From positions 1-63,641 of the IMG/VR virus record IMGVR_UViG_3300024502_000002: a DNA stretch of 63,641 bases; one strand, given 5' to 3'. How positions within the stretch are numbered: the stretch's first letter is position 1; each line of letters opens with the position of its first letter. Origin of the DNA: a virus. The translations under genes and the position numbers were made by a program. Below are positions 3,480 to 61,132 of the stretch, piece by piece. The notes under the pieces are model-generated. The model worked only from the letters and a program-made list of their open reading frames with translations. It was not told the origin of the DNA and did no database searches.

Positions 3480-3934
3480 GGTGAGGTAACCTTACGTTTA
3501 TGATTTTGATGTGTCAAGTCGTCGTTTTTGGAAGCCTTGGAAGCTCCTTTGAGGGCATCAAGAGACAGGTTTTGGAAATCCCTGAGAGAGTTCTTTTGAT
3601 CCTCCTGAAGGTCTTTAATCCCCTTTTCAATATCCTTGAGCAGCTTCGTAAGCTCATCCAAACAATCAGCAAACCTGTTCATTGTGGACAGCCCCTTTCC
3701 CCACACCGCCCGGAGAATGAGGGCGATGAACGTAGCAAGGGCAACAATGAAGAGAATCAACACGACATGCAGAGGTTGAAGGGCTAGTTCTTCCGGCGAA
3801 ATCACGGCGATTTTAGCATAACATCCGTATGCTGTCGTGGCGATTATTCCTAACCCAGAGATGAAAGCTCCGGTGATCTGGTATGCCAAGGCCACAGGTA
3901 GGTCAAAATGATGGGGGTCAATGGGTATCCTCAT
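3476..3934 (-). CDS. Two-span membrane protein, 152 aa (holin-like)
   Basis: The ATG at 3934 (MRIPID) is chosen; the frame extends upstream without good support. There are two hydrophobic segments, about residues 17-37 and 58-80, then a long charged helical tail with coiled-coil character (LTKLLKDIEKGIKDLQEDQ). The last codons (KRKVTSP) contain the -10 box of the promoter for the next gene. The role is probably in lysis. Confidence 0.6.
   Translation of the reverse strand: MRIPIDPHHFDLPVALAYQITGAFISGLGIIATTAYGCYAKIAVISPEELALQPLHVVLILFIVALATFIALILRAVWGKGLSTMNRFADCLDELTKLLKDIEKGIKDLQEDQKNSLRDFQNLSLDALKGASKASKNDDLTHQNHKRKVTSP
3489..3517 (-). promoter_or_regulatory. Promoter for holin/spanin genes, TTGACA-N17-TAAGGT
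   Basis: On the minus strand TTGACA (3517-3512) is followed after exactly 17 bases by TAAGGT (3494-3489), then nine bases to the ATG at 3479. The same CGTAAGGTT core occurs in five other places, four of them with a matching -35 box. It lies inside the end of the upstream coding sequence. Confidence 0.7.
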
Positions 3935-3986: not shown

Positions 3987-4373
3987 TCATGGGGTGGATG
4001 TGATTTCGGTTTTTCGTTGCTCTGAAATAATGCCAAGCTCGACAAGTTTGCTGAGTCCCATGACGACGCGGGGATCATCGGCATGGACGGCGGAAAGCCA
4101 AGTGGTTAGCTCAAAACGAAGGGTTGCGATGGTTGGGTCTTCCGATAGGGCAATTTGAGCCTTTTCTGGCATCGTGAACTCCGCCATGAAATCCTCCACA
4201 TTGAGCCACTTTTTAACCTGTTGCTCGAATTCAGCGTCCACCCATTCATTAAGGGTCCGAAGCCTTTCATCATCACTCATGGCAACAGGCTCGCCGTTCA
4301 CCATCTTAATCATGGTGGAGTAACGGGGATCGGCCAAAAGGTCCGCTAGAATCTGTTCTTTAGTTTTCATCAT
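3987..4373 (-). CDS. Hypothetical protein after the tail fibre, 128 aa
   Basis: An acidic, mostly helical 128-residue protein (KEQILADLLADPRYS at the start). Its ATG overlaps the stop of the tail-fibre gene, so it is translated with it. The position suggests a fibre-assembly chaperone or a tail accessory protein, but no motif confirms this. Either of the first two Met codons could be used. Confidence 0.65.
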   Translation of the reverse strand: MMKTKEQILADLLADPRYSTMIKMVNGEPVAMSDDERLRTLNEWVDAEFEQQVKKWLNVEDFMAEFTMPEKAQIALSEDPTIATLRFELTTWLSAVHADDPRVVMGLSKLVELGIISEQRKTEITSTP

Positions 4374-41250: not shown

Positions 41251-41943
41251 ATGAATGAAGCGTCCAATAACGAACAGTCCATTGCCCTACCAGTCAAGTT
41301 TAGAAAACCTGAAAAGAACATTGTTGGAAGAAGATTTGGCAAATTACAGATCGTCAACTTTAGCCACATTGGTAAGCATTACGTTAAATTTTGGGACTGT
41401 ATTTGCGACTGCGGGGCTTCAAAGAAAATCTCAGGAGACAATTTGATTAAAGGGCGCACCAAAAGTTGCGGCTGCCTTAACAGGGAACTAAAGCCAACAT
41501 TTAAGCATGGGCACCATCCTAGAACTGGAGCTAGCCCCGAGTATGCAGTTTGGCGGTCAATGAAAAGACGGGTTTTGAACCCAAAATGCGAACATTTTGA
41601 CCGGTATGGAGGTCGTGGTATCAAATGCTGTGATAGATGGCTCAACAGTTTTGAGGATTTCTTTGCTGATATGGGTAAAAGGCCATCATTATTACATTCC
41701 ATAGACAGAATTAACAATGATGGTGATTACGAGCCTAATAATTGCAGGTGGGCAACAAAGAAGCAACAGGCCAGATCGCGTTGCAGTAGTAGATATATTG
41801 AATACAACGGAGAAACAAAAACTCTGGCCGAATGGGCCGAAGGGGCTAATATGGATTTACGAGCCTTGTGGCAAAGATTAAAGCGCGGATGGAGCATGGA
41901 AAAATCACTAACAACATCACTGGATAGGAAAAAGCAGCCATGA
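41251..41943 (+). CDS. Zinc-module plus HNH/AP2-type phage endonuclease relative, 230 aa
   Basis: Residues 25-85 are the zinc module (VGRRFGKLQIVNFSHIG, WDCICDCGASKKIS, TKSCGCLNRE). Residues 95-190 follow the common pattern: EYAVWRSMKRRVLNPKC, RYGGRGIKCCDRW, DFFADMGKRP, SIDRINNDGDYEPNNCRWAT. The C-terminal ~40 residues are helix-turn-helix-like (TLAEWAEGANMDLRALWQRL). Codons are A/T-rich. It is probably a homing endonuclease with its own leader cassette, downstream of terminase. Confidence 0.8.
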   Translation: MNEASNNEQSIALPVKFRKPEKNIVGRRFGKLQIVNFSHIGKHYVKFWDCICDCGASKKISGDNLIKGRTKSCGCLNRELKPTFKHGHHPRTGASPEYAVWRSMKRRVLNPKCEHFDRYGGRGIKCCDRWLNSFEDFFADMGKRPSLLHSIDRINNDGDYEPNNCRWATKKQQARSRCSSRYIEYNGETKTLAEWAEGANMDLRALWQRLKRGWSMEKSLTTSLDRKKQP

Positions 41944-44330
41944 TTATAAGCCTGATACATGCAACGAGGAGGCAGGCGGAAGCAAAAGCCTGTCAAAAAC
42001 TGTGGATGGATCGCTGCGAACACGATCCTAATGTCGAAATCATAACTGCTGTCGATCACGATGATGTTGAATCACAGAAGGCATTTCCTGATGCGGTTGT
42101 GGCTTATGGTCAGGAAGGTGTGTGCAAGGCATGGAATGCTGCCGCAGAGAAGGCCACTGGAGACATTTTGGTTGTAGTAGATGACGATTTTGAGCCCTGT
42201 TTTGGTTGGAATGAAGTCATTCGATCATATATGGCGAACGGAGCTGATGTCCTGCATGTTGGAGACAAGCATCGCAAAGATCAGCTCCTTTGTCACCCGA
42301 TTGTATCTAGACGCTTTTACGAATCGGTTGGCTACATTTTTCACAAAAGTTTCCGTAGCGTGTATTCCGACAACTGGTTTACCGAAGTAGCAAAACGCTG
42401 GGGCTACGTTGATGCCACACAGGGCGGTAAGGTTGACCTTGGCTTTGTTCACAAGAATCCCTCACAAGGATATGGCACCGAGGACGAAGTAGCCCGCAAA
42501 TCCAACTCCAAGGAACGCTACGCGCACGGCAAAGCGGTTTTCGACAAGCTCCAGAACCAAACCATTCTTGCGTTCACCTGCGCTGATCGTCCGCAATACC
42601 TCAAGCCTACGCTGGATTCATGGCTTGGCACCGATCTAAACCTCGCCTCATCCGTCCATTTCTTCATCGAGCCAACGGACAAGCGTGATGAATGCGTGGC
42701 GGTTATTGACGAGTTCGCCGCCAAGTCTCCTGTTCCGATTATCAAGCACTTCAACAAGGAGAAGCTCGGAGTTCTTCGCAATCCTTGGCATCTGTTTGAC
42801 CACTGTTTCCGCATCGAAGGCGCGAAGTATGTGATCCTTGGCGAGGACGACTTTTTGGTTTCGCCGGATGTGCTAGACTTTTTCACTTACTCCAAACTTG
42901 AGTTTAGCACAAAAACGATGGCCGTTTGCGCCAAATGGGTAGGAAAGAATGCAGACAACAACCCGGCAACGTGGCATCGCACGACCGAGTTCACGGGAAA
43001 CATCTGGATGGTTGACGACATTAGCTGGAGTCGTCACCTCCGTGACACTTGGGACTTCGACTATTCGAGCGGTGCTGCTGATGAATCCCCTAGCGGATGG
43101 GACTGGAATATCCAGCTTCGCGTCATGCCGAAGAACGATCTTCACTGCATCGTTCCGACCGCCTCTCGATCAAAGCACATCGGTATTTCCGGCGTCCATT
43201 GCACCGATGAGGTTTTTAAGGACACTGTGGCGTGGAACTTCGTAGAGAAGCCTTACAAGGGCGAGTATCGAGCCTTCGAGAAAGTTGAAATCAAGGATGT
43301 GGCAGGTCGGGATTACCCCATCAGCGGTGATCCTGTCGTTGTCTCATCATCGGGCGACTTGGGGGATTGCGTCGTCTCCCTCGCCACGCTGGTTCACAAG
43401 GGCAATCCAGCCATCTACCACCTTTGGGACGATGGACTCACCAAGGGTATTGTTGCCCGCGAGAAATTTATCCGCCCGTTCCTTGAAAGCCAGCCGATCA
43501 TCAAGGAGGTCAAGATCGGTCGCCCCGAGCAATGCGATTGGCGTTCGGAGGACTTCCGCAACCGTCGAATCCATGATGGCACCTCGAATCTGGCCTCAGT
43601 TCATGCCATACACGCCAAGATGTTTGGCTTCATTGATGAAGTTCCGGTTTTCGACAAGCCTTGGCTGGTGATTTCTGACTTCGAGAAGCATGGGCGCATC
43701 GTGGTGAATCGCAGCCCACGTTATCATAATGACAGTTTCCCGTGGATGAAAGTCGTCCAGCACTACGGAAGTCGCCTGCTTTTTGTTGGTCTTGACGAGG
43801 AATACGCCGCCTTCAGCCAGTTCGGAAACGTGGAAAGGGCGAAAATTGGCTCCATGCTAGAACTCGCCAAGCTCATCGCCGGAAGCTCGCTATTCATTGG
43901 CAATCAGTCCGTTGCCATGACGATTGCCGAGGGCTTGAAGCATCCTCGCATCCAAGAAGCCTGCCTGACACTGCCAGACTGCATCTATCCGCCTTCCAAT
44001 GCTCAATATGTGGGCAATGGCAAGGTGACGCTGCCAGACATCAACGGCTCTGGCGTGCTCGAAATCACCCCTCCTGTGGCGCTTCCTGATGGAACGGAAA
44101 CCCCTCCCGGTGGATGGCAGTTCCGAGGCCTGCCGAAGGGCTTGATGCACCCGAACGCGGCGATTGCGCTGATGAAACAGCAGATGCCGCATTTGCCCAA
44201 ATACGAGCTAATCACGATGCTCATGGAGTTCAACCGTGATCGCTGCCCGGACTTCTTCGATAAAAGTGCGCTTGACAGAGGGCAGGCTAAGTTTAGGCTC
44301 GCCATGCGAAACGCCGGACATCAAATATGA
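41940..44330 (+). CDS. Three-domain glycosyltransferase, 796 aa
   Basis: Domain 1 (residues 1-205) is GT-A-like with a D-D-D near 81-83 (DILVVVDDDFEP) and a VCKAWNAAAEKATG approach typical of family-2 enzymes. Domain 2 (about 207-430) is a second GT-A with YVILGEDDFLVSPDVLDFF. Domain 3 (about 455-796) looks GT-B/heptosyltransferase-like, with SSSGDLGDCVVSLATL and a C-terminal AGSSLFIGNQSVAMTIAEGL. It would modify a sugar, perhaps on capsid, fibre or host surface. Its start overlaps the HNH gene. Confidence 0.75.
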   Translation: MIISLIHATRRQAEAKACQKLWMDRCEHDPNVEIITAVDHDDVESQKAFPDAVVAYGQEGVCKAWNAAAEKATGDILVVVDDDFEPCFGWNEVIRSYMANGADVLHVGDKHRKDQLLCHPIVSRRFYESVGYIFHKSFRSVYSDNWFTEVAKRWGYVDATQGGKVDLGFVHKNPSQGYGTEDEVARKSNSKERYAHGKAVFDKLQNQTILAFTCADRPQYLKPTLDSWLGTDLNLASSVHFFIEPTDKRDECVAVIDEFAAKSPVPIIKHFNKEKLGVLRNPWHLFDHCFRIEGAKYVILGEDDFLVSPDVLDFFTYSKLEFSTKTMAVCAKWVGKNADNNPATWHRTTEFTGNIWMVDDISWSRHLRDTWDFDYSSGAADESPSGWDWNIQLRVMPKNDLHCIVPTASRSKHIGISGVHCTDEVFKDTVAWNFVEKPYKGEYRAFEKVEIKDVAGRDYPISGDPVVVSSSGDLGDCVVSLATLVHKGNPAIYHLWDDGLTKGIVAREKFIRPFLESQPIIKEVKIGRPEQCDWRSEDFRNRRIHDGTSNLASVHAIHAKMFGFIDEVPVFDKPWLVISDFEKHGRIVVNRSPRYHNDSFPWMKVVQHYGSRLLFVGLDEEYAAFSQFGNVERAKIGSMLELAKLIAGSSLFIGNQSVAMTIAEGLKHPRIQEACLTLPDCIYPPSNAQYVGNGKVTLPDINGSGVLEITPPVALPDGTETPPGGWQFRGLPKGLMHPNAAIALMKQQMPHLPKYELITMLMEFNRDRCPDFFDKSALDRGQAKFRLAMRNAGHQI

Positions 44331-45812: not shown

Positions 45813-46381
45813 GCTTTCTGCCAGCAATGGTCGGGGAATTTTTTAGCCCCGGTATTGTCAATTGCATCCAAAGGCAACTGCACCTTCAGCTTTAAAACAC
45901 ATTTGCACCGAGTGCAGCCTCTTAGCTCATGGTCCCGGCTAGTTTCAGGCCATCCTGTGCGCTCGCCCATCCATTTGAGCAGGCTGTGGCAGTTCCAGCA
46001 GATGCCAACGGGTTTGTTGTAGTGACATGAGGCACAAATAGCGGCCCTTCGCTCTGCCTCTTCGTTGCTGACAAATTGAGCGCCGCCAGCAATCCACTTG
46101 GTCACGCTTGCCCCAAAACGGTAGGCATCCGCCAGCGTCATGTGCTCTTCCGCCTCTCCCTCTTCGCGACACTCGATATGCGGGTTTTGCTCGCACATCT
46201 CATGGATCACGACGGCCTTCCAGTTCTCAGGAGGCTCGATACCATTTGCCTCCCAAGACTTCGCCACCTTTGGAAAGATCGCAAATAGCGACAAGTCCTT
46301 GTGGACGATGCCAGTCCGGCTGTCGGTAAAGACAAATCCCGGCTGCGGAGGTGTGGTATTCTTGTTTACGATGTCTTTCAT
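45809..46381 (-). CDS. Zinc-cluster hypothetical protein, 190 aa
   Basis: Residues 115-180 carry several Cys pairs: CASCHYNKPVGICWNCHSL, then CTRCKC and a later HCW. This resembles a double zinc ribbon used in small host-takeover or virion proteins. The first 100 residues are mixed and carry no signal. ATGA overlap with the giant virion gene. Confidence 0.7.
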   Translation of the reverse strand: MKDIVNKNTTPPQPGFVFTDSRTGIVHKDLSLFAIFPKVAKSWEANGIEPPENWKAVVIHEMCEQNPHIECREEGEAEEHMTLADAYRFGASVTKWIAGGAQFVSNEEAERRAAICASCHYNKPVGICWNCHSLLKWMGERTGWPETSRDHELRGCTRCKCVLKLKVQLPLDAIDNTGAKKFPDHCWQKA

Positions 46382-49300
46382 CGGACGATCTTCTTCAGCG
46401 CACGGTCACGCACTTCATCCGCCTTGTCCATCAGGAAGGCTCGGGCGCGTTCTGTCGGCATCTGTTCAAGCCTGCTACCATAGCGAAGGAGCATCTGCCT
46501 GTATCCTTTGCCAGTTTCCAGCGAGTAGGCATCAGCCTCTTCCTGCGTCAGCTTGCGCTTGTTGCGTCCTTTACCCACCATGCGGTGCTCGGCATTGGCG
46601 GGAGTAAGCCAGATTCCACGGCTGTTCAGCTTGCCAAGGGTGCGGTATTCAGGTTCGGTTTCAAGCTCCATGAACTCACGCGATCCGGGCCAGACCTTGC
46701 GCTCAATCTGCTTGCCAAGGATGTCGTAGTATTCCTTACCTGAGTAGCGGCGGTAAACCGGGATATGAGACGCCGTTTGCTCCCAAAGTGACTCGTATTT
46801 ACGCAGCCCCGGATCAGTCATAAAGTCGATGTCCTTTAGGATGCGAGGAACAAAGCCACCGCCCCATCCGGCCATCACCTTAGCGAAACGGTCAAGACGT
46901 TTCTCGTTCGGGTCTTTGGAGGAAAGGTTGTTGCCAAAGAGGGTCTGGAAGCCGGAGAGAGCGGGAATTTCACCGGCAGAAAACACGCCAGATGCAGCAG
47001 CAGAAACCAATCGGTCAGTAATAGACTTCTCGTTCCATTGCTCGGGCGAGTGGCGAACAAGGTCGGACAGACTTCCAATGGCGGCAAATACCGATGACGG
47101 GGGCCAGTTTTGGTAGTTGAATGCAACCACGCCGGGGATGCCAATAGTGTATTCCTTCTGACCGGATGCGAGTTTTTGCTGCTTTTGATCTGGCGTTAGA
47201 TTTGCCCATCCGCCATTCCAGAAAAATCCACGCTTCTCATCATCTGGCTCGTCCATGATGGCTTTAATTGCCATTCCACCGATTATAGCAAAGAGAAGGC
47301 CAGCCGTCTGATTACGCAGAATCATGTCGGTGAAGGCTTCTTTGGCCTCAATCTTGGAGTCTTTGACCGTCGCCTCATACATGCGGAACATGCCAATACC
47401 CGGAATGAAGCTCAGACCTTGGTTGAACTTGTTTCCAGCGAAGCGGGCAAAGCGAAGGCCAGCCAAATTCGCGCTGTTGTAGGCTATAAACTGACGAATG
47501 TAAGCGAATGCAAGCTGAAGACCTTTGGCTGTCTTGTCTGCGCCATCAACCTGATTCCACTCGCGTTGAGCATCTGCGAGGAATTTGTCTGCCTTGGTGG
47601 TGGCACCTCCTGTGAAGTATTTTATGCCCGAGTAGATCGCTCCACCAACGCCAGTCGGATCAAGCGTCATGGCTCCGTTTTGAGCGATGAAATCGGCATT
47701 CTCGCTGAATTTTCCGAACTCTTGCAAATCGGCCATCATTCGAGCCTTGGCGTAGGAGTCAACAAGCGCCTTTTCATGCTGATTGGTTGGCTGCTTATTG
47801 TTGAAATCCTCTTGGATAGCCTTCTCGCGGTAGAGCTTGAGGTTATACTTCTCGGCTGCTCGCTGCAAATCCTCGCCGCTCAGGTTAAGTTGGCGGAAAA
47901 CGATTGGCAAAGCTCCAGCCTTTGTGACTCCAGTGTTGAAGTTGTCGAGGGCGCTAAGCAAACGGCTCACGGAACGCATCCAGATACCCATTACCTTCTC
48001 CAACACCTTGTCCGACTTTGCCATCTTTTCAGCGAGTGAAACGGTCTTGCCGATGCTTTCGTAGTTCAGGTCGTTTCTGAAATTATGAAGCGATGGGTCA
48101 AGCAACGCCCTGTCTCCAGTAACAAGATACTGCCACGCCAGACGACCTTCACGACCGAAGGCCTTCAAGAACTCATACATCGCCTTGAACGAGGCCTCAA
48201 TTTCAGCCGGAACCTCCTTCGGATTGGTGAATCCAGCTCGGAGGACGCGGAATACTCCGACGGTAAGCTCGAAGCCACCGTTCGCCACAGCCATCGCAAT
48301 AGATGCTGCGGTGTTTAAACCTGAAAGAACAGCAGTAACCCATAGATCGGCGAGCCATTTTACAAAAGGAATCTTCGTTGATGCGCTCAGAGCCTCAAGA
48401 AGTTCATAGCCAGCCTTGTTGCGCTTCACCTCGTTGAGCTTGTCGTCCTGAAGGATGTCGAGCAGGCGGTCGATGTTGGCCCGCTCGGCTTCGGTGAACT
48501 CGGACTTGATGCCAAACTTGTCCGCGAGGTGCTTCATCAGGCGGTCTTCATCAAGGATGCCAAGGTTGATGTCCTCGACCAGCTTTTGACGCTGTGAACG
48601 GAGGGCATCTGCGCCTTCTTTGGTGAGGCGTCCAGCGGCTTGTTCCTGATTGATGGCGTTATCCACCATGCGGTCCAAGATCGCCTTCCGCTTGGATTCC
48701 CATGCCTGCGTGAACAGGTCTGCGAGTTTGTTTCTCTGAGCGTCATCAAGGTTAGCCAAAGATTCCTCGGAGGAAATTGCGTCAAAGATGCGCTGGCGGT
48801 AAATCTCGACGGTGGAGGCTTTTTGAGAGAGCAGCTTGCGCCAAGGGATTTGCTTTTTAAGCGGAGCTTTCTCGCCGGGACGCGCTTGATTGATGGCGCG
48901 AATCATCTCAGCCAATGCGGATTCTCCTTCGAGCTTGGAAACATCCAGAGACTTGCCCTGTTCCGCACGTTTCTTGGCCGTGGCGACCATCTTTTCGCGC
49001 TTCTTGCGGGTGGCTGGAGTCTTGGTGAACTCGTCAAAAACACCAGCCATTTCCTTGTCGATGCCAGCGATGAACTTAACCAGCTCTTCCTCCGACATTT
49101 GCGAGATGGCATTCCGCTCCTCGCTGGAAATGGAGGCTTTTGCCTTATTGCCAGCACGCAAGGCATTTAAAGCCCTCATGGCAATGCCACGCTTACGAAT
49201 CAGGTCTTTGAATTTCTCCCAAAGGGTTTTGCCCTTTTGATCCAGAGTTGCCTCACCTTCGGCAAGATCAATCGCGTCCTGATTATCTTCCAAATCATCC

Positions 49301-52300
49301 GCCACCTGCTCACCAGCATCTTCGCCAGCCTTAGCGTCGGTCTTTTGCAAGGTTTCGGCAGTCTGTGGCAGATCGGAGGCAACTCGGGTGGCTGCCAGCT
49401 TGCCTTCCTTCTCTAGGTTTTCGTTCGCCCTGTCGAAGATGAACATCCAGCTAAACTCGGGGCTTTTAGTGATGTAGCTGCGAATACCTTGAGCACGGCC
49501 TGAGTTGGTCCCCAAGTTCTGCCAGTAACCAGCCAGCTTGCGATCCAGCTTTTGAAGTTTGACTTGGCGAGCGCCAGTTGTGCCCCTGTCTCGGGACTGT
49601 TTAGAAACGCGATCCTTGACCACGGCAACAAGCATGACCAAGGCTGGCATGTTGTTTTTGATGCCAATTTTCTGAAGGAAGTCTTCCGAAAATAGAGATT
49701 CGCCGATGCTCTCAATCGAGTTCCCTTCGTCTATGAGCTTGTTGACGAAATCATTGGCGACCTGTTTGTAGAATTTGCTGGGCTTAACGGTGTAGATTTC
49801 AGCGTCAGCGCCTTCCATTGGCCTAGCCTTGGAGAATGCGTTGAGAGAGTTGCTCTCAATCGCCTCAATCCCTTCTTGGAAGTTCTTTACAGCCTCACCT
49901 TCCGTCTCAACCCGCGAGGCCACAGCACGCTTCGGCATGATGACGGCGAATCCAGCGCGACGGCCTTCGGGGGTGAAGACGTCGAAAGCAGACTCACCCT
50001 CCTGCAACACTGCCCCATTGTCCTCGTAAAGGTCTTGAAGGATGTTGCCGAACTCGTTCTCAGTCATGTCAGGCGCAAGCTCCTTGGCCTTCGCGTAAAG
50101 ATCATCCAAAGGCATCGCCACGCCAGCCTCGGTGTTTGACTGCTCATAGGCACGCCGGATGGCATCGCGCATCTCGATGATGCGGTCGTCGTAAACGGTG
50201 TCTCGTGCAAGCTGTGCGCCTGCGCTGGATGCGGCGGAGTAGTCGGAGGCGTATTCTACTCGGGAGAAACCAGCATTAGATGATATTACTTTTTTGATTT
50301 TACCAGCCAACGATCTAGCCGCTTTTCGGGCTTTTGTTACATCTGATGAACTAGCGCCATTGCTCTTATAGTCATCTATCATGTCCTCCATCTGCTCGGA
50401 TAAGCGATAGTAAGCATCTTCAGCAAAATCATCACCAATGATAATGAGTTCATTCCCCTGAATAAACGGCAATTCAACTTCCGAAACCTCACGATCCAAA
50501 ACTTCAGACATTGCATAAGTGTCACTCATTGGGCCGCCAATAAGCCATGCAGCAAAATCTATCTCGGATGGAGACAAGCTAACAACATACCTTTTGTCAT
50601 CGGAAAGGCTCAACTTCACCTCGCCACCATCCTTCGTCGTGAAGCTAGGAACAGTAGTCCGGCGCATGGCGTTTCGCAGCAGGCGAACCACGTCCTTCAT
50701 GTCTTGAAGCGTAGGATCACCTTTGCGTCCGGTCAGACGACGCCAGACGCGCTTCAGGAATTGAACGATGTCGTCCCAAATGCCCCCGGTGGGTATTTTT
50801 ACAAGACGCTCGAACTTCTTCTGGAAAATCTCCTCCAAGGCTTCATTGCGGCTGACTGGGTTGGTTCTCCAATCGGCAAATTCAGTGTAGAGGCGAACGA
50901 GGTTGTCGATTTCCTCGGTGGTGTAGGTGCGATTAACGAAGCTGCGGAACTCGCGCAATTCCCAAGGCTCAAACAAATCAACTCCGCGATGACCGTTTTC
51001 ATGGGCAATGACGCGACGTGCTGCGGCTTGCTCTGCGGAAATGCCGCGAGCTTCTGCAATACCTCGGTCCAAGTCAGAAACGCCAACATTGCTGGCGAAA
51101 ACAAAGGTGGTCTTGTCGGCATACAATCCCTCTACATTCGGCTCAGCCATGATGCGTGCATAGGCGGCTGGAAAATAACGCTGATTTGAGCGGTCAGCCA
51201 AGAACGCTTCCGGTGAGGCATAGATTCGAGTCAGGATGGCATTCGGAATCTCGCCGGAGTTTTGCAACTGGCGACGTGCGGACTCGACAATGGCTGTGGT
51301 AACTTTGTCGTATTCGATGTTTGTCTTTGCTGGATCAATGACAGACTTCCTAGCTCGCCTTACTTTTTGACCATCCTTGATTTCCTCAGCCTCACGATCC
51401 CTGTCCTCCTTGGTAATAGCGTCATTTTCCTTAGTTGACGGCTGCGTTTCTTGTGTTTCACTTGGCGTAACCTCGGGAATCGACCCTCCCGAGGGCTGAC
51501 GTTCAGTAACACCGGCTGCCCCAGCCCCTTTTCGCGAGGGGGCTGGGGTTTGTTTTTCGGCTGCTGTGGTTTGTTGGGAAGATGGATATGCCGCGTCGAG
51601 GAAGTCTTTGAAGGCTTTTTGAGATGCCTTGAGTCCAACTGGAAGTGCTTTGCCGGTCCACTCTTTCCAGACTTTGCGAGAAACCTTGTTGTCGGGATGA
51701 AGAAGATCGGTCCACTGCTTATTCTGAATGGCAGACATCAGAGCCTCGCCATTTTTTGCGGCTATCTCGGGGCGAATATCCTCACCCTCGTAAATTTGGG
51801 CAAACCTTTCGGCCTTGGGTGCCCAGTTGGGCTTAACGCCGCGTGCCTGCTCAAGCTCTTGCCTTGCAAGGTCGAGAGTAGTTGGCTTTTCCCCCGAAAC
51901 AGGTCCGGGGGCGGTCGCTTTCACGGCCTGTGCAGCGGGAGGTGCTGCCTGAACTGGTTCGTCAGTTGCCCCCGGTTGAAATACATAGAGGTCGCCAGCT
52001 TCATTTAAAACATATCCAGCTGGTAATCCCAATGCTGACCGTTGAAGGTTTTTTAATTTTTCCTTCGCCTTGGATAGTCTGGCGCTTTTACGACTGCCGG
52101 GAGATTCTGGCTCATTCTCAATGCTAGAAATTTCATTCTGAACATCAGAAATCTTTTCGTAATGGTTGCGAACCTCGGCTTCAAAAAGAGAAACCGAAAC
52201 GGGTTCATTTTTTGAAAATGCCGCCGAGATAACATCTCGCTTTCCAGCACGCATTGGAGCTGGTTTTCCAGTTCTGAGATACTCTTCTCGTCCAGATTCA

Positions 52301-54462
52301 AATACAAACTTATCAAACTCATCCGGCGTCATCTGCTCCGGCTTCGTAGCATCCCGCTCGGTGCCCACGTCTCGCGACGTTGGCGTGCCTTCGGTAGCGA
52401 GCGTCGGCGTCCCGGATGGGGTGATTACTTCTTCTTCGCGGCCTTCTGCGGCAACTTCTTCAGGCTGGGCGTTTCCTTCGCCCATTCCCGGCAGTTCCAT
52501 TTCGGGTCTTTCTTCGCGAAGCAGGCTTTGACTTGGGATTTGCTTTTGAACGGCATTTTCTTGTGGGGTTTGTTGTGGAATCGCGGCTTGAAGGCCGGGG
52601 GAAATTCGCCCCCCACCGCTCAGTTTGGCGGCGGCTTCGGCGGCCATAGCGGTGATACCGGGGAATTGATTTGAAATAGTTGCTGCCTGAACTGGCGTCC
52701 CAGCGGGGGCTTCTTGATCCACGACGGACTGCATTTCCGTCTCAGGCAGCGAAGGTGTTACTGAGGAGATTTGCGACAAGGAAGTCGGAACATAATCAAT
52801 GATTGGATAGTTTTTGACTCCAGATTTCTTCCATCGTTGAAGATCGCCAATGGGATTGTTAATATCTACATCCTTTCCAATCCTTCTTAGAGCTTGCCTG
52901 TAAGCTGCAAACCTCCCCAGCACAAGATTGCCATTCTCATCAAGAAAACCGCCAAAGAACGGTCTATTTTCATTGACTGCTTGTTGTGCGTTTTTCGCAA
53001 TAGATTCAGCCATCCCTTTCGGTTGAGTTGACAACCAAGTATCCGCCACCTCGTCCACATCATAGTCGGAAATGGATGATGTTGGCTCAATGCCGGTTAC
53101 TTCCGGTTCAACCGCTTCAGCCGTTTTGACAGGCGAAACTGCTGGCTCGGTTGATTTAACGATTCCCTCGACGACTTTGGTAAACTTATCTTCGGCTTCG
53201 GCTGCGAGTGGGCTGTCGGCATTGTTGAGGTCATTGGCGGCTGCGCTGGACAATTTAACAGCCACTTCTTCCGGTCGAAACATGTATTGAGCACCTTCGA
53301 CCGTTTTGGTGGCAGCAGCCATTGGCAGAGAGAGCGCTGCATCACCAAGCATTTCCATGAATGCTTCCTTGGTGCTGATGTCCTGACCAGCGGCAGCTTG
53401 AGCGGCGATTTCACCGACACCGGCAGAACCCGTGTCAATAGCAGCCGCGCCAGTCAAACGGGCAATGTTCCCTGCGGAAGAGAACTGGCTTTTGGCGGCT
53501 TCGGCAGCGGCCTTTGTGGTGGCTTTCAAAGCAGGGTCAAGCAACGCCTGATCCACAGCTTCCTTGGAGGCGACATCCACGCCAGCGGCAACCAGTTCCT
53601 TTTGAACAGCACGGGCTGCGGCACGCTCAGGCATGGTCAGCAGACGACCAGAACCCTTGACCCCAAGAGCCTCAATCGCTCCGATGACAGAGCCTCGAAT
53701 GGCTCCGGTCTTCATGCCCTCGTCAACAACATCGGGATTCTGTTGAAGGTAAGCGGAAATCTCATCCGCCGTCATGTTGGATGCGGCCCCTTGGGTGCGC
53801 TCGTTCAGCACGTCAAAGATGGCAGGACCAGCCTCCATGAGGGTATTTGACACCGCTCCGCCAGCCATAGCACCAGCGATGCCTGTCAGAATGGCTCCGG
53901 GGCCGGTTTCGATGCCAGCCGCGCCACCAACAAGACCACCAAGGCCGTAACCAGCCAGAGAGGTAGCGCCACTGATGAGAGCGTTTGGCGCGGATTGAAC
54001 AGCGGTTTTGAATGCCGCTCCCGGTTGAGCCAAGACGGCAGCCGGGTATTCAGCCAGAGCGCCAATGGTTTCCAGCGGGCCGCTGGCCTTGTCGAAACTC
54101 TTTTCGGCCTCATCAAGACCGCGCATAAATGCCACGTCCTCGGGGGTTTGCAGAGCTTGCTGCTCACGTTGCAGCTTGGACATTTCCGCCATTTCAGCGG
54201 CCACATCCGGCATATCTCCGGTCAACGCATTGAAGGTAGCGCCCACACCGGATTTCATCTGCCGGTAGCCAAGACCCAAAGCGGAACCAAGTTGAGACAG
54301 GTATCCGGGCGTCTCTTGTTCCGGTGCTGGAGCGGCCTGCGCTTTCTGGCTCAGAATTTGCTGAACGGCATCGTCGTAATCCTGTTGGCTAGGCTCACCT
54401 TCCGTGTTGAAGGTCACGGGGTATTCAAGACCGTCAACGGTGATGGGGACTTGCCAAGGCAT
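46378..54462 (-). CDS. Giant polyvalent virion protein with HExxH peptidase site, 2,694 aa
   Basis: The order is a small N-terminal domain (MPWQVPITVDGLEYPVTF), glycine/alanine-rich hydrophobic segments near residues 165-215 that could cross a membrane, a long disordered linker (about 640-730), helical domains, and a zincin-like site RRVIAHENGHRGVD near residue 1155 with a downstream NEALEEIF. More helical and coiled-coil domains follow to the end. Large injected virion proteins of this kind carry several enzyme domains into the host. A second gene is printed inside at 52425-52556. Confidence 0.75.
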   Translation of the reverse strand: MPWQVPITVDGLEYPVTFNTEGEPSQQDYDDAVQQILSQKAQAAPAPEQETPGYLSQLGSALGLGYRQMKSGVGATFNALTGDMPDVAAEMAEMSKLQREQQALQTPEDVAFMRGLDEAEKSFDKASGPLETIGALAEYPAAVLAQPGAAFKTAVQSAPNALISGATSLAGYGLGGLVGGAAGIETGPGAILTGIAGAMAGGAVSNTLMEAGPAIFDVLNERTQGAASNMTADEISAYLQQNPDVVDEGMKTGAIRGSVIGAIEALGVKGSGRLLTMPERAAARAVQKELVAAGVDVASKEAVDQALLDPALKATTKAAAEAAKSQFSSAGNIARLTGAAAIDTGSAGVGEIAAQAAAGQDISTKEAFMEMLGDAALSLPMAAATKTVEGAQYMFRPEEVAVKLSSAAANDLNNADSPLAAEAEDKFTKVVEGIVKSTEPAVSPVKTAEAVEPEVTGIEPTSSISDYDVDEVADTWLSTQPKGMAESIAKNAQQAVNENRPFFGGFLDENGNLVLGRFAAYRQALRRIGKDVDINNPIGDLQRWKKSGVKNYPIIDYVPTSLSQISSVTPSLPETEMQSVVDQEAPAGTPVQAATISNQFPGITAMAAEAAAKLSGGGRISPGLQAAIPQQTPQENAVQKQIPSQSLLREERPEMELPGMGEGNAQPEEVAAEGREEEVITPSGTPTLATEGTPTSRDVGTERDATKPEQMTPDEFDKFVFESGREEYLRTGKPAPMRAGKRDVISAAFSKNEPVSVSLFEAEVRNHYEKISDVQNEISSIENEPESPGSRKSARLSKAKEKLKNLQRSALGLPAGYVLNEAGDLYVFQPGATDEPVQAAPPAAQAVKATAPGPVSGEKPTTLDLARQELEQARGVKPNWAPKAERFAQIYEGEDIRPEIAAKNGEALMSAIQNKQWTDLLHPDNKVSRKVWKEWTGKALPVGLKASQKAFKDFLDAAYPSSQQTTAAEKQTPAPSRKGAGAAGVTERQPSGGSIPEVTPSETQETQPSTKENDAITKEDRDREAEEIKDGQKVRRARKSVIDPAKTNIEYDKVTTAIVESARRQLQNSGEIPNAILTRIYASPEAFLADRSNQRYFPAAYARIMAEPNVEGLYADKTTFVFASNVGVSDLDRGIAEARGISAEQAAARRVIAHENGHRGVDLFEPWELREFRSFVNRTYTTEEIDNLVRLYTEFADWRTNPVSRNEALEEIFQKKFERLVKIPTGGIWDDIVQFLKRVWRRLTGRKGDPTLQDMKDVVRLLRNAMRRTTVPSFTTKDGGEVKLSLSDDKRYVVSLSPSEIDFAAWLIGGPMSDTYAMSEVLDREVSEVELPFIQGNELIIIGDDFAEDAYYRLSEQMEDMIDDYKSNGASSSDVTKARKAARSLAGKIKKVISSNAGFSRVEYASDYSAASSAGAQLARDTVYDDRIIEMRDAIRRAYEQSNTEAGVAMPLDDLYAKAKELAPDMTENEFGNILQDLYEDNGAVLQEGESAFDVFTPEGRRAGFAVIMPKRAVASRVETEGEAVKNFQEGIEAIESNSLNAFSKARPMEGADAEIYTVKPSKFYKQVANDFVNKLIDEGNSIESIGESLFSEDFLQKIGIKNNMPALVMLVAVVKDRVSKQSRDRGTTGARQVKLQKLDRKLAGYWQNLGTNSGRAQGIRSYITKSPEFSWMFIFDRANENLEKEGKLAATRVASDLPQTAETLQKTDAKAGEDAGEQVADDLEDNQDAIDLAEGEATLDQKGKTLWEKFKDLIRKRGIAMRALNALRAGNKAKASISSEERNAISQMSEEELVKFIAGIDKEMAGVFDEFTKTPATRKKREKMVATAKKRAEQGKSLDVSKLEGESALAEMIRAINQARPGEKAPLKKQIPWRKLLSQKASTVEIYRQRIFDAISSEESLANLDDAQRNKLADLFTQAWESKRKAILDRMVDNAINQEQAAGRLTKEGADALRSQRQKLVEDINLGILDEDRLMKHLADKFGIKSEFTEAERANIDRLLDILQDDKLNEVKRNKAGYELLEALSASTKIPFVKWLADLWVTAVLSGLNTAASIAMAVANGGFELTVGVFRVLRAGFTNPKEVPAEIEASFKAMYEFLKAFGREGRLAWQYLVTGDRALLDPSLHNFRNDLNYESIGKTVSLAEKMAKSDKVLEKVMGIWMRSVSRLLSALDNFNTGVTKAGALPIVFRQLNLSGEDLQRAAEKYNLKLYREKAIQEDFNNKQPTNQHEKALVDSYAKARMMADLQEFGKFSENADFIAQNGAMTLDPTGVGGAIYSGIKYFTGGATTKADKFLADAQREWNQVDGADKTAKGLQLAFAYIRQFIAYNSANLAGLRFARFAGNKFNQGLSFIPGIGMFRMYEATVKDSKIEAKEAFTDMILRNQTAGLLFAIIGGMAIKAIMDEPDDEKRGFFWNGGWANLTPDQKQQKLASGQKEYTIGIPGVVAFNYQNWPPSSVFAAIGSLSDLVRHSPEQWNEKSITDRLVSAAASGVFSAGEIPALSGFQTLFGNNLSSKDPNEKRLDRFAKVMAGWGGGFVPRILKDIDFMTDPGLRKYESLWEQTASHIPVYRRYSGKEYYDILGKQIERKVWPGSREFMELETEPEYRTLGKLNSRGIWLTPANAEHRMVGKGRNKRKLTQEEADAYSLETGKGYRQMLLRYGSRLEQMPTERARAFLMDKADEVRDRALKKIVR
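52425..52556 (-). CDS. Small basic protein printed inside the giant gene, 43 aa
   Basis: MPFKSKSQVKACFAKKDPKW then REWAKETPSLKKLPQKA: the KSKxQ...W...ETPxxKxLP pattern of a known small phage protein family. It lies in a different frame from the giant protein, on the same strand, at a low-complexity linker of that protein. Either a truly overprinted gene or a captured one whose other frame reads through as linker. Confidence 0.6.
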   Translation of the reverse strand: MPFKSKSQVKACFAKKDPKWNCREWAKETPSLKKLPQKAAKKK

Positions 54463-56346: not shown

Positions 56347-57804
56347 TTAACGGACACCTGCCCGGCTGCTAAGTTCAAGCCACTCCTTCATGGCTTCTTC
56401 TGGAATCTTACGCTTGTTTCCAAGCTCCTGAGATTTGGCTTGGTTTTCTTTAATCATTCGAGTAATTTCTTCAGCCTTGCTGGCTCTGGCTGCCAATTCT
56501 TGTGGCGTAAGTGGGCGAGAAACAGTTTTTGAGGTTTGTGGGCGACCAAACATGAATCCAGACGGGTCCTGACCACCAGCAGGTTGCATAGTCTGCTGAC
56601 CTGATGCAATTTCATCCTGAAGATTTTTCAAGATTTGATAAAGAGAAGATCGCTCGGCATCCATCTCGCGCATCTCATCGGAGGCGAGTCCTTGCGCCCC
56701 ATACTTGGCTTCCAAGAGGGTGAGTTTGCGTTGCTCGTTGGCAGTGAGCGGCTTCTGATTGACAGCAGCCTTACCACCTGCGGCCTTCGCCACTTTCTTG
56801 ACGGCGGTTTTGGCAGCTTCCACCGGCTTGCTTTCTGCCACTTTGACAGCGGGAGCTTCCCTCACAGCAGCTTTTTGAGACGGAAGTGGATTCGGCGGCA
56901 AAATGCTCGTTCTGGCTGGGGCATTGCCACCCAAAACGGATGAGCCACCCGTCATGCCTTGAGTGCCTTGAACGTAGTTTTTGCGCTCAAGGAACGGACG
57001 CATTGGGACCATTTTGCCAAAGTCATCACGAACCATGCTTTGAGGTTTTTGAGAGGGGTCTGCAAACGTGGTCACGCTGCCACGCCCATAAGGCGACGTA
57101 AACGAACTGACGCCATCGCGGCTAGAACGCTGAATGCCACGATTGAAATCGCTCATCATCGCCTTCTCTTCAGCGAGATTCTTGGCGGCAATGGTAGGAT
57201 CGCGGGAGATATTGCCCTCTTTGTCCATCACCATACCAGTTGCTTCATTCCGCTTGTTGTAGTCAGCACGAACCTTGCCGAACTCACCAGCCGCCTTGGC
57301 GTTGGCGATGTTTTGCTGACGGGCGCTCATGTAGGGATTTGGGGCTGGGGCCACTTGAGCTTGAAGGGACGGCTGTTTGGATGGAAAATTGTAGCCAGCG
57401 CGGTATGGTCCAACCGCCGCCATTTTCTCGCCCATTTTGCCCAACGCGCCAGCGCCAGTCTGCTTTTCTTGAGCTTTCCGCGCCCATTCCATCTGAGGTT
57501 CAGTCATGGCGGGGGCTTGAGGCTGTCCCATCCCTGCGTAAGGGTTCTGATACCCCATGCCAGAGCGGTTATACATGGAGTCGTTGAGGTAGCCACCAAG
57601 ATTGGGGTTGTAAAGCAAGCCCAACTGATTGCCGATGGACGCCTCACGATTGATGTCAGCCATTGAGCGGGTTTTATCCCGTTGAGCCAGATAGAAGGCA
57701 TTTAGGCCGGTTGGCGCGTCTCCCTGCCTGCGAGCAAGAAGCCCAGTTCCCGGACCGGTTCCGGGGATATAACTTACATTTCGGGGGCGTGCATCAATAG
57801 CCAT
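56347..57804 (-). CDS. Virion-associated protein, 485 aa
   Basis: Low-complexity and Gly/Asn/Gln/Pro-rich in residues 1-330 (MGYQNPYAGMGQPQAPAMTE), then a Lys/Ala segment and a helical C-terminus (EARASKAEEITRMIKENQAK type). Composition fits an internal or minor head protein. No enzyme motif seen. Confidence 0.6.
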   Translation of the reverse strand: MAIDARPRNVSYIPGTGPGTGLLARRQGDAPTGLNAFYLAQRDKTRSMADINREASIGNQLGLLYNPNLGGYLNDSMYNRSGMGYQNPYAGMGQPQAPAMTEPQMEWARKAQEKQTGAGALGKMGEKMAAVGPYRAGYNFPSKQPSLQAQVAPAPNPYMSARQQNIANAKAAGEFGKVRADYNKRNEATGMVMDKEGNISRDPTIAAKNLAEEKAMMSDFNRGIQRSSRDGVSSFTSPYGRGSVTTFADPSQKPQSMVRDDFGKMVPMRPFLERKNYVQGTQGMTGGSSVLGGNAPARTSILPPNPLPSQKAAVREAPAVKVAESKPVEAAKTAVKKVAKAAGGKAAVNQKPLTANEQRKLTLLEAKYGAQGLASDEMREMDAERSSLYQILKNLQDEIASGQQTMQPAGGQDPSGFMFGRPQTSKTVSRPLTPQELAARASKAEEITRMIKENQAKSQELGNKRKIPEEAMKEWLELSSRAGVR

Positions 57805-57861: not shown

Positions 57862-58713
57862 TTAGGACTGATAAGGCACTCCTAATCGAGAAAGAGCGGA
57901 CTCAATACCGATCCTCAAATCTTCCAACGTCACATTCTCCTTCCAATATCTCGTCATCTCGACGCATTTTGGATGCATCAGGTCGCCGTAAAGTTCGAGA
58001 AATGCCACATAGTAGTTGGTTATCTTGTCTCGAAGATTAACGGGAAACGTGCGCTTGGGCCAGTCGAAGCGGTGATTCCACTTCATGTCGGGGTGGCAAA
58101 TTACCTTGCCTCCTTGTTGGCGCGTTTTCTCCGCCATATACCACTCCTCGCCACCAAAGCCTAAGAAGTGCGGGCTGACTCTAGGTGCATGCTTTTTCAG
58201 GAACGAGAAGCACCCCATGCCTTGCGCTGGAATCTCAAATGGTTCCAATGGCATTTTGCCGTTCTCATCCTTGCGGTTTCCCCAAATGCCGTAGTCGTGA
58301 CCTCGCCAGACAGGCTCAATGAGTTCGCTGGTATGCTTGAGGTCGTCATACCAAAGGGGTCCGGTGAGCATGTTTGGAGCATCGTTCTTCACCCAGTAAT
58401 CCATCATCGCTTTAATGAATCCCGGCTGAAGCAGGACGTGACAATCGAGGCCGAGGATCACATCGCCTTTGGCCTCATCGAAGGCCCGATATTTGACGAA
58501 GCTGCTGGTCTTATCCGTCACGTCCACCACTCGCATGCTTGGAGCTGACTTGGCGAAGTGCTTAATCTGCCTGCCGTGGTCGGAATCTGGATTGTTGTCG
58601 AGAATCAAAAACTCGGTGTCAGGCGGGAGTTCTTGGTAGATGCGAAGAGATTGAATGGAAAAAAACACCCCATCATAGTCCGAATGGGTTGCCATTGAAA
58701 TAGTAAGATTCAT
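57862..58713 (-). CDS. Glycosyltransferase family 2-like protein, 283 aa
   Basis: A GT-A enzyme: MNLTISMATHSDYDGVFFSI, FLILDNNPDSDHG, then the metal/nucleotide site GDVILGLDCHVLLQPGFI (D90, H92) and GFGGEEWYMAEKTRQQG with the acidic catalytic region. First of the four-gene cluster beside the mucin-like protein. The donor sugar cannot be read from sequence. Confidence 0.8.
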   Translation of the reverse strand: MNLTISMATHSDYDGVFFSIQSLRIYQELPPDTEFLILDNNPDSDHGRQIKHFAKSAPSMRVVDVTDKTSSFVKYRAFDEAKGDVILGLDCHVLLQPGFIKAMMDYWVKNDAPNMLTGPLWYDDLKHTSELIEPVWRGHDYGIWGNRKDENGKMPLEPFEIPAQGMGCFSFLKKHAPRVSPHFLGFGGEEWYMAEKTRQQGGKVICHPDMKWNHRFDWPKRTFPVNLRDKITNYYVAFLELYGDLMHPKCVEMTRYWKENVTLEDLRIGIESALSRLGVPYQS

Positions 58714-59303
58714 GCAAATCGAATCAATACTTGTTGGTGATTGAGGTTTGTTGCCTCCACAGAAAAATCCATTCCGGTTCGATTCGCAAATTCGATGAAT
58801 GCCCTGAACTCGCCATCAAGAAATTCCTTGTAGTTGAAGAACTCATCGAAGAGAATCAATGGTTTTGAGTTACTGATGACCCCTTCAAGCTCGGTGAGGA
58901 TTGTTTGGGTTGACGAAAACAAATCGCAATCAACATGAATTCCGGCGATGGTTGGTGGCATTGCCTGTTTCCATTGTGGAATTGTCACATCAAACCAACC
59001 CTTCCTAATAGACACATTTGATTTAAATGTGAGCTTTGTGAGGTCTGTTGAGAAGTGCCCCTTTGGATGGCTTGGTGTCCACTTTTCAGGCAGCCCTTCA
59101 AAAGAGTCAAACCCGTGAAACCAACAGTCCGGCCTTACATCTGCCATGTAATTGATTGATCTGCCATTCCAAACGCCAAACTCCAAAAAAGAACCACTGG
59201 AGGGAGCTTCTTTGAGATAGTGGTGCCAAATGTGCGGCCTGCTAAGGCATCGAACCTTTGGGCTTAATACCATGTGATACAGTTCATCTTTTGTGAGATT
59301 CAT
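58710..59303 (-). CDS. SAM-dependent methyltransferase (TylF-like), 197 aa
   Basis: Motif I is SGSFLEFGVWNGRSINYMAD (36-55). A metal-binding-like IHVDCDLFSSTQTILTEL follows near 122-139, then PLILFDEFFNY. This layout matches the TylF/MycF sugar O-methyltransferases. It could cap or decorate the glycan built by its neighbours. Overlaps both genes beside it. Confidence 0.8.
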   Translation of the reverse strand: MNLTKDELYHMVLSPKVRCLSRPHIWHHYLKEAPSSGSFLEFGVWNGRSINYMADVRPDCWFHGFDSFEGLPEKWTPSHPKGHFSTDLTKLTFKSNVSIRKGWFDVTIPQWKQAMPPTIAGIHVDCDLFSSTQTILTELEGVISNSKPLILFDEFFNYKEFLDGEFRAFIEFANRTGMDFSVEATNLNHQQVLIRFA

Positions 59304-59925
59304 ATTGTGGAAATGAGTTTAATCCATTCATTACACCAGAGGCATTAAAGCATTCACAGTTAAGACGTGCTAGAGTTTCCTTCGCCCTGTCGAACAATTC
59401 CATCAAATACTCCACCTTTAGTCTTAGTGGGTCTGGAGTGCCATGACCGTAAAAAGCATCGGGCTTGTATTCTGAAAACACCTCATTAGCCGACTTTCCG
59501 CAAAAGCCCTTAAATTGATCCTGTGGGTTTGGCCTTCCAATCTCCTCCCACTTTGCCACCTTTTCCTGATTGTAATCGTGGTCAAATCCAAGAAGAAGAA
59601 TGCGGCACGGTCGAAAGTTCCATGCAATCCAGTTCAAACCTTGGAAGAATATAGTGTATCCAACATAATGCTCTGGAGATGCGGTTTTGATGGAAAGGTG
59701 CTTGCAGGTTTTTCTTGCCGCATCAGAGTATTCTGGATGTGAGATGGATAATGATTTGGGTATCTCAAAATCGGGTTTAACCGGGAAGTCTCCGGAGCGA
59801 ATCCAAGTGTCACCATCCCTCCAAAGCCTCCATGCGTTGTTAGCCACAACCGTTTGCCTACCATCCCTTAAATCATCTATCTTCAAAGCGGATATACCGC
59901 TCCCAACGTATAGAACTTCTTTCAT
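59284..59925 (-). CDS. Putative sialyltransferase/DUF115-like sugar enzyme, 213 aa
   Basis: MKEVLYVGSGISALKIDDLR then VANNAWRLWRDGDTWIRSGD resembles nucleotide-sugar transferases with a GSGxS loop and an N-terminal Rossmann-like fold. CRILLLGFDHDYNQEK is a further conserved-looking part. Neighbours are a glycosyltransferase, a methyltransferase and a Ser/Thr-repeat protein, consistent with protein glycosylation. Confidence 0.55.
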   Translation of the reverse strand: MKEVLYVGSGISALKIDDLRDGRQTVVANNAWRLWRDGDTWIRSGDFPVKPDFEIPKSLSISHPEYSDAARKTCKHLSIKTASPEHYVGYTIFFQGLNWIAWNFRPCRILLLGFDHDYNQEKVAKWEEIGRPNPQDQFKGFCGKSANEVFSEYKPDAFYGHGTPDPLRLKVEYLMELFDRAKETLARLNCECFNASGVMNGLNSFPQYESHKR

Positions 59926-60341
59926 TATGGGGCCGGGGTTGTCGTCGTTGTCGGCGACGGCGTAGTAGTTGTAGTGCTACTTGTTGTAGTTGTTGAACTC
60001 GTTGTCGTCGTGGAGCTGGTTGTAGTCGTGCTACTCGTTGTTGTAGTCGAACTTGTGCTTGTTGTAGAAGAAGTGGTTGTTGGCGCGGCAGTTGTTGATG
60101 ATGATGTCGATGGGCTGCTGCCAACATACGTTACCACCCCGCCAACGATAGACAGGTATGTTCCGACCTGAATCGGAACAGGCTGAACCGGGCTAGGAAT
60201 GGACGAAGCATTGCTCGTCACCCTTGGCCGATCCAACTGCGAAATCATCACGCCATTTGATCCTTGGTAGGCGGTAATTCCATCATTCCCCCACACCCAA
60301 GGCCTGTTGGTGATGCTCGAATTGCCTAGATACTCGCTCAT
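59925..60341 (-). CDS. Mucin-like Ser/Thr-repeat virion protein, 138 aa
   Basis: Residues 1-74 are a folded-looking part (WGNDGITAYQGSNGVMISQL, VPIQVGTYLSIVGGVV). Residues 75-138 are almost only Ser, Thr and Pro, mainly SSTTTT repeats ending TTTTTPAP. Such tails are natural O-glycosylation sites. The gene lies between two structural genes and the sugar-enzyme cluster, so it is the obvious target of those enzymes. Confidence 0.75.
   Translation of the reverse strand: MSEYLGNSSITNRPWVWGNDGITAYQGSNGVMISQLDRPRVTSNASSIPSPVQPVPIQVGTYLSIVGGVVTYVGSSPSTSSSTTAAPTTTSSTTSTSSTTTTSSTTTTSSTTTTSSTTTTSSTTTTTPSPTTTTTPAP
59928..60119 (-). repeat. Tandem coding repeat for the Ser/Thr tail
   Basis: Degenerate 18-base units reading SSTTTT recur five times with synonymous changes, flanked by shorter TTTTT runs. 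The codons differ between copies, so the protein repeat is kept while the DNA varies. Confidence 0.75.
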
Positions 60342-61132
60342 TGTATGACTCGTTTAGGTGAAACAGGCGGGTAAATCGTGATCTTGCGCCGATAATACTG
60401 ACCGTTCACCAACTGGACATCATCTTCAATGACAAATGGTGCCCAATCGAGGAAATTGGTCGCCGGGAAAATCTGCTTGTTCGGGTTCCAGCTCCCTGTT
60501 TCATCCACGGTGCCTTGCCCAAAGACCTTTTGCGCTCCCGGCACGTTGTTGTCGAAGATCACCTTCGGATGCAGACAGCGGGGGAAGTTGATTTCTTTTC
60601 CAAGAAAGTCTCCGTTGATGTCAGTCGGAATCGGCTGGACGTGGGTAATCTCGGACTGCGAGAACGGCTTGTCGCTCAGATACTCCTCAATCTTGACCAC
60701 CGAGGACACGTTCGGCGTAGGCTTGTAAACATACTTGGCGAAGTAACGAGGGGCTGTGTCGGTCGTGGTGCCATTGTAAACGGCCTGCGGGAAGTCCGTG
60801 GTCTTGTAGATGTCCAGCGAGTAGAGCACGCCGGGCCAAGGATACTGGCGCGTGGCAAAGGACGTGCGAAAGGGCGTTTGGCGTTGCTCTGGCGTCTTTG
60901 ACTTGGCGTAGTAGAACCAGATATCATCCCCTTCCTTGGAGCTATCACAATAGACGTAGGAGGCGAAATCCTGACGCCGTGGCAGGGTCGGGATGCTCGA
61001 CTTGGAGTAAAGCTCGCCAAGCGTCGGCGTGGCGTCCAGCTTCATCTGGTTCGCATCCTGCCAAACCCGGACGCTAAACTCGTCTGGATTCGGCGTCGGA
61101 ATGACTTCGAGCTTGATTTCAGGGGAGGCCAT
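60338..61132 (-). CDS. Virion structural protein, 264 aa
   Basis: A beta-rich, aromatic protein (PNPDEFSVRVWQDANQMKL, YVYCDSSKEGDDIWFYYAKS). It overlaps the repeat-protein gene by ATGA and shares its last base with the gene upstream. Position suggests a tail or decoration role. Confidence 0.65.
   Translation of the reverse strand: MASPEIKLEVIPTPNPDEFSVRVWQDANQMKLDATPTLGELYSKSSIPTLPRRQDFASYVYCDSSKEGDDIWFYYAKSKTPEQRQTPFRTSFATRQYPWPGVLYSLDIYKTTDFPQAVYNGTTTDTAPRYFAKYVYKPTPNVSSVVKIEEYLSDKPFSQSEITHVQPIPTDINGDFLGKEINFPRCLHPKVIFDNNVPGAQKVFGQGTVDETGSWNPNKQIFPATNFLDWAPFVIEDDVQLVNGQYYRRKITIYPPVSPKRVIQ

Follow-up and report, generated by a model that had tools for sequence, protein, structure and literature searches.

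A phage cassette pairing a mucin-like repeat tail with a GalNAc-transferase-like enzyme, probably one version of an exchangeable surface-glycosylation system

Introduction

Phages can glycosylate their own virions, as shown by mycobacteriophages (PMC12363180), among which virion glycosylation is reported for Che8, Corndog and Myrna (Freeman et al. 2023, as cited in PMC12363180 and PMC12619734). In these citing accounts, the phage-encoded glycosyltransferases are thought to act on the phages' own virion proteins, as we propose for the locus described here; they place the targets at the C-terminal ends of capsid and tail tube proteins, whereas our locus encodes a dedicated Thr-rich tail that is exchanged together with its enzyme. 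Phage virion glycosylation is known from a few isolates, in which matching enzymes to targets needed experiment.

Gram-positive serine-rich repeat glycoproteins are low-complexity repeat adhesins encoded beside their own glycosyltransferases, the GT-B enzymes GtfA/GtfB, and beside accessory secretion genes. In the present locus the enzyme is instead of the GT-A DxH kind, and secretion genes are absent. Known GT27 polypeptide GalNAc-transferases work in the eukaryotic Golgi. The phage enzyme resembles them in its predicted GT-A fold and in a DxH motif followed by a later His (PMC4202792), and a Thr/Ser/Pro repeat lies alongside as presumed acceptor; it differs from them in its size of 283 aa, in having neither a lectin domain nor a membrane anchor, and in that its sugar and acceptor are putative. 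Bacteria such as Bacillus have collagen-like proteins that come with a prolyl hydroxylase or are glycosylated (PMC8968730). These are comparable to related phage loci in which Gly-X-Y tails adjoin a 2OG dioxygenase and the Y-position proline is the likely substrate, with the difference that the latter are phage-borne and belong to several exchangeable tails on a common anchor, our locus being the Thr-rich version. We found no description of these tail/enzyme cassettes in the open-licence literature. What is new here is that the mucin-like substrate is a dedicated one, that the enzyme is GalNAc-transferase-like, and that substrate and enzyme are exchanged as a matched pair.

Results

Organization of the locus

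The window, meaning the whole stretch of DNA analysed, is a 63.6-kb IMG/VR virus record. GenBank phages contain no relatives of the region or of its encoded proteins, and tblastn against the phage collection at E 0.01 gave no match to the region's glycosyltransferase. Minus-strand genes for proteins of 254, 264 (BB264), 138, 213, 197 and 283 aa follow one another with small overlaps that suggest co-transcription of the cassette genes, and a promoter scan returned sites no more numerous than in shuffled sequences. The features of the locus are as follows.

60338–61132, minus strand: BB264, a conserved 264-aa neighbour forming the fixed upstream flank of the swap site (relatives in 69 loci, 25–92% identity)
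59925–60341, minus strand: 138-aa tail protein with ATG start, composed of an anchor (about residues 1–74) and a Ser/Thr-rich tail (residues 75–138); its neighbours are overlapped by 4 nt and 1 nt
59964–60053, minus strand: five SSTTTT units within the tail, used for unit-to-unit codon comparison
59284–59925, minus strand: 213-aa protein of unassigned type, occurring only in cassettes with a DxH glycosyltransferase
58710–59303, minus strand: 197-aa TylF-like methyltransferase (PF05711, E 1.1e-7, 31.8 bits against a cut-off of 23; PHROG 6608, E 4.8e-38)
57862–58713, minus strand: 283-aa GT-A glycosyltransferase, GalNAc-transferase-like, with DxH (D90, H92) and a conserved H214 (PF00535, E 1e-5)
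56347–57804, minus strand: 485-aa backbone gene after the cassette, with a backbone-like gene at the cassette end also in L002–L004
55379–56332, minus strand: 317-aa backbone gene, downstream marker of the swap site, with a homologue after the cassette in most loci

BB264 is probably structural, and a search of bacterial genomes with it gave no match. The original prediction had placed three enzyme genes after the tail gene; all three are present, in the order 213-aa protein, TylF-like methyltransferase, glycosyltransferase, which is not the order proposed. Its identification of a glycosyltransferase holds with the PF00535 match, and that of a TylF-like methyltransferase with a PF05711 score above the curated cut-off.

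Two further large proteins of the window were noted. The 796-aa protein at 41940–44330 (plus strand), far from the cassette, has two GT2-type regions (PF00535, E 1e-6; PF13641, E 2e-6) and a weak GNT-I match. The 2694-aa protein at 46378–54462 (minus strand), in the same gene block as the cassette, has no Pfam match.

A mucin-like tail maintained at the protein level

The final 64 residues of the 138-aa protein, 46% of its length, consist of T35 S20 P6 A3. Ser and Thr thus fill 55 of 64 positions, against a background of 13.6% in the 11 long genes of the window (binomial P ~1e-38), and the richest 40-aa stretch in those genes holds 18 S/T residues compared with 40/40 in the tail. Among the five SSTTTT units, identity at codon positions 1, 2 and 3 is 90, 90 and 33%, and TRF detects an array at 59979–60053 with a period of 18 nt and merely 71% matches, both of which indicate that the repeat is maintained as protein and did not arise by recent expansion of the DNA. 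The tail therefore has one hallmark of a mucin-like domain, namely tandem Ser/Thr/Pro repeats conserved as protein. These results bear out two earlier statements on this gene, that nearly half of the protein is Ser/Thr/Pro repeat with SSTTTT units and that the repeat is conserved as protein while its codons vary.

The anchor is common to L002–L004, whose tails differ, and matched no Pfam or PHROG family above noise. A search with the whole 138-aa protein returned no relative because anchors differ and the tail is of low complexity; relatives were reached through the neighbouring BB264.

The 283-aa glycosyltransferase resembles polypeptide GalNAc-transferases

In this enzyme a DxH motif takes the place of DxD. 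When a profile of 15 homologues was compared with all PDB sequences, GalNAc-T4, T10 and T12 ranked 1–3 (E 4e-4 to 1e-3); a separate profile of the GT469 family also placed GalNAc-T12 (E 0.0016) and T4 (E 0.004) first, and GT487, which carries TDAH, had no PDB match. D90, H92 and H214 are invariant in the 15 homologues, and in the profile alignment the LDCH motif and the GHVF histidine align with GalNAc-T4. The metal ligands of GALNT1 are Asp209, His211 and His344 (PMC4202792), and the three invariant residues of the phage enzyme fall on positions aligned with GalNAc-transferase metal ligands.

A first AlphaFold2 model built with close homologues only was too poor to use (pLDDT 52); adding L069, L089 and L090 raised this value to 71. 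The resulting model (m5ab757a3beae; pLDDT 70.6, pTM 0.72) is of moderate confidence and weak at residues 119–167. With VIA-align, GalNAc-transferases occupied ranks 1–29 (Z 13.5–15.4, ~235 residues, rmsd 3.1–3.7), with other GT-A enzymes close behind (RmlT, Z 13.3). Foldseek placed TarS and a mannosyltransferase first, mixed with RmlT and GalNAc-T2, so the fold alone cannot choose between GT-A families. The protein stops after its catalytic domain, Pfam gives GT2-type matches only, and the C-terminal ricin-type lectin domain is absent, for which reason we term the enzyme GT27-like and do not file it under GT27. By profile and predicted fold together, it is closest to the polypeptide GalNAc-transferases, with which animals initiate mucin O-glycans.

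Accessory enzymes

Homologues of the 213-aa protein at 46–47% identity occur in L003, L017–L019, L029 and L044; these came via the cassettes, a search with the protein itself giving no confirmed viral relative. It has been described as probably sialyltransferase-like, which the searches do not show: Pfam and PDB gave no match, and its N-terminus has just a weak 31-residue profile resemblance to a GT29 domain (hhalign probability 6.5). That domain belongs to L107, where a single gene (2620–3714) encodes a methyltransferase fused to a GT29 sialyltransferase-type domain (PF00777, E 6e-11) and adjoins a Pro/Ser/Thr tail of intermediate Thr content. A proposed relationship to the 206-aa protein of L035 was dropped, the comparison giving no support. 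The 213-aa protein, restricted to cassettes with a DxH enzyme, is a possible sugar transferase, and the domain match of the 197-aa protein is consistent with O-methylation of a sugar.

Tail type and enzyme type are matched at a swap site

Successive BB264 searches reached 32, then 44, then 69 loci, and some 70 related uncultivated phage contigs show the swap site. In most loci, the gene directly downstream of BB264 combines a short anchor (e.g. NRPWVWGNDxIT) with a variable C-terminal part that is Thr-rich, Ser/Pro-rich, collagen-like (Gly-X-Y) or missing. Enzyme genes come after the tail gene, up to conserved backbone genes such as that for the 317-aa protein.

We tabulated 69 contigs, recording the composition of the tail and the homology of the genes after it. 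Among complete cassettes, a DxH glycosyltransferase is present in 28/28 with Thr-rich tails (T fraction ≥0.29) and in 0/17 with other or absent tails. Leaving out the contigs found through the glycosyltransferase gives 23/23 against 0/17. After merging repeats within backbone clades, the counts are 17/17 and 0/14, the 17 including three contigs without BB264 for which further merging is possible. T fractions reach at most 0.22 without DxH and start at 0.29 with it, so the split does not depend on one threshold. Contig-level p-values range from 5e-16 to 1e-11 and are descriptive only, because the contigs are related to one another and because we drew up the tail classes and the DxH grouping with the data already in view.

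The pairing extends to subfamilies. LDCH enzymes accompany SSTTTT-like, TTTTED or TTTTEEP tails, TDAH enzymes (GT487) PTTxPPTT tails, and VDAH enzymes (GT469) PTPTPT tails. Thr-rich tails, with several repeat motifs and with lengths that vary among relatives, occur in at least seven backbone clades, and GT487 is found with PTT-type tails in two distant ones (L043 and the L101–L109 group). All phage homologues of the 283-aa enzyme with readable upstream sequence are preceded by a Thr-rich tail gene, even at 49–55% identity.

Tail-less anchors (L005–L007, L034, L037–L040, L115, L120) are followed at the same site by DxD glycosyltransferase-like and methyltransferase genes, from which it follows that sugar enzymes at this site do not need a repeat tail; L041 and L042 have neither tail nor sugar enzymes. 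The notion that all sugar enzymes at the swap site serve a repeat tail is thereby ruled out. The site serves more generally as a slot for surface-modifying genes, and only for repeat tails is the pairing a firm rule.

Collagen-like tails and joint exchange

A second pairing, independent of that between Thr tails and DxH enzymes, involves collagen-like tails. Those with Y-position proline (L002, L004, L008, L009) lie beside a 2OG-Fe(II) dioxygenase (PF13640, E 4.5e-14) with an invariant HxD...H motif (H107, D109, H166), whereas the dioxygenase is absent from collagen tails without Y-position proline (L035, L129, L130). A search with the dioxygenase returned nine contigs, and in 8/8 of those with a readable upstream gene this gene is collagen-like with Y-position proline. 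Bacterial prolyl hydroxylation reportedly favours the Y position (PMC8968730), and the enzyme beside these Gly-X-Y tails is likely of prolyl-hydroxylase type, with the Y-position proline as likely substrate. In four of these eight, L152–L154 and L157 (~4119–5567), the collagen tail and dioxygenase lie elsewhere in the genome, close after a probable capsid gene and with a different anchor.

Comparison of the window with three loci reveals how cassettes move. Against L047, the glycosyltransferase is 90% identical while BB264 and the 317-aa protein are only 35% and 34% identical. Against L003, the flanks are 91% and 87% identical while the glycosyltransferase and the 213-aa protein reach 67% and 46%. 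Against L002, with flanks at 92% and 87%, a collagen tail and dioxygenase replace the Thr-rich tail and sugar enzymes. Tail and enzymes therefore travel together between otherwise distant phages, and close phages differ by replacement of the whole set.

Location of the tail protein

In L089 and L090, a single protein of ~1000 aa combines a BB264-like region with Ig-like domains, a beta-propeller (DUF5122) and a TTTTEEP tail, and its gene directly precedes those for a methyltransferase and the DxH glycosyltransferase. Together with the gene block of the window, this architecture supports the tail protein as a putative particle appendage. In both contigs (L089, 2379–9902; L090, 2322–9920), the Thr tail and the two enzyme genes lie within an apparent single long fibre gene, and the ORF after the enzyme genes begins with sequence resembling the beta-propeller repeats that precede the tail.

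Discussion

We consider it probable that with this locus the phage encodes its own mucin-type O-glycosylation of a virion appendage, and that the cassette is one version of an exchangeable tail-plus-enzyme system. Under this model, the product of the 138-aa gene would be a small appendage protein whose fixed N-terminal anchor leads into a disordered tail rich in Thr and Ser. Much as in mucin-type O-glycosylation, the DxH glycosyltransferase would, in the cytoplasm of the host, put a first sugar on many Thr/Ser residues of this tail, and the 213-aa protein and the TylF-like methyltransferase might then extend or cap the sugars, yielding a sugar brush on the particle that could serve adhesion, protection or avoidance of recognition. 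Tail and modifying enzymes would form one exchangeable cassette in the phage group, its versions being Thr-rich tails with DxH glycosyltransferases, collagen-like tails with prolyl-hydroxylase-type dioxygenases, and Ser/Pro tails with other sugar enzymes. The initial suggestion that this phage glycosylates its own Ser/Thr-rich protein through adjacent enzymes gains strong comparative support from the prediction of enzyme type by tail type, from joint exchange and from the likeness to GalNAc-transferases.

The main counter-evidence is that tail-less relatives carry other glycosyltransferases, with methyltransferase genes, at the same site. The enzymes could accordingly have a different target (a further virion protein, phage DNA or, in seroconversion, the surface polysaccharide of the host), the Thr tail being an unmodified flexible spacer and both merely gathering in a hypervariable region. 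Action on DNA or on host serotype is known for phage glycosyltransferases (PMC12619734), and the window encodes a second glycosyltransferase (41940–44330) far from any such tail. Chance gathering, however, does not predict that repeat type fixes the enzyme family in all complete cassettes, nor the joint movement of tail and enzyme, nor a dioxygenase accompanying collagen tails with hydroxylatable prolines, and we regard this explanation as unlikely.

Somewhat less likely again is that the tail is glycosylated and the protein released or kept on the host cell, for instance as a surface blocker or biofilm component, instead of being a stable part of the virion. An anchor matching no Pfam or PHROG family above noise would allow this, but the gene is embedded in a block with conserved backbone genes, an export signal is not evident in the sequence, and in L089/L090 the Thr tail ends a protein with the domain architecture described above. 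A functionless, microsatellite-like DNA expansion, in frame by chance, would fit the visible tandem 18-nt units and the variable tail length; it is already contradicted by third codon positions that diverge far more than the first two, and by the recurrence of Thr-rich tails across backbone clades and motifs, always with DxH in complete cassettes, and we judge it very improbable.

Beyond the window, our results suggest that these viruses make surface brushes of differing chemistry and exchange them. We give roughly even chances to the broader proposition that this uncultivated phage group owns a true viral mucin-type O-glycosylation pathway, with GalNAc-transferase-like enzymes, and uses one site to swap complete brush chemistries at the surface (glycosylated Thr repeats, hydroxyproline collagen, Ser/Pro repeats), every one of them being a cassette of substrate plus enzyme on a common anchor. 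In these loci the matching is done by natural exchange and repeat chemistry predicts the enzyme family, so that substrate and enzyme can be read from the genome. If confirmed, the system would provide compact enzymes by which repeats could undergo mucin-type glycosylation or proline hydroxylation in bacteria, would mean that phages diversify their surface chemistry as well as receptor-binding sequence, and would show that the mucin-initiating enzyme has relatives in both phages and bacteria.

Searches of bacterial genomes gave seven clear homologues of the DxH glycosyltransferase (34–42% identity). A Thr-rich protein is encoded nearby in 3/7 loci (L143, 4519–4900, plus strand; L145, 7849–8545, plus strand; L148, 529–1317, minus strand), with a Tat-like N-terminus in L143 and L148, and 4/7 are without a clear one. 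Tracts of six Thr codons form about four clusters in the 5.6-Mb L143 genome and about ten in the 8-Mb L145 genome, one of which lies at the glycosyltransferase locus in each. These loci are a possible bacterial counterpart of the phage system. A six-Thr-codon tract near the Devosia homologue (L146) was rejected as a Thr-rich gene, as no open frame translates it as Thr.

Inspection by eye showed small ORFs similar to HNH-type or related mobile nucleases in or near the cassette of L035 (8192–8731), L036 (9037–9777), and L037 and L038 (9728–9955); they represent a possible vehicle for cassette exchange. A 608-aa ORF lies on the opposite strand between the glycosyltransferase and 317-aa genes in L047 (5854–7680), L058 (1752–3578) and L062 (1631–3457), on the minus strand of each contig.
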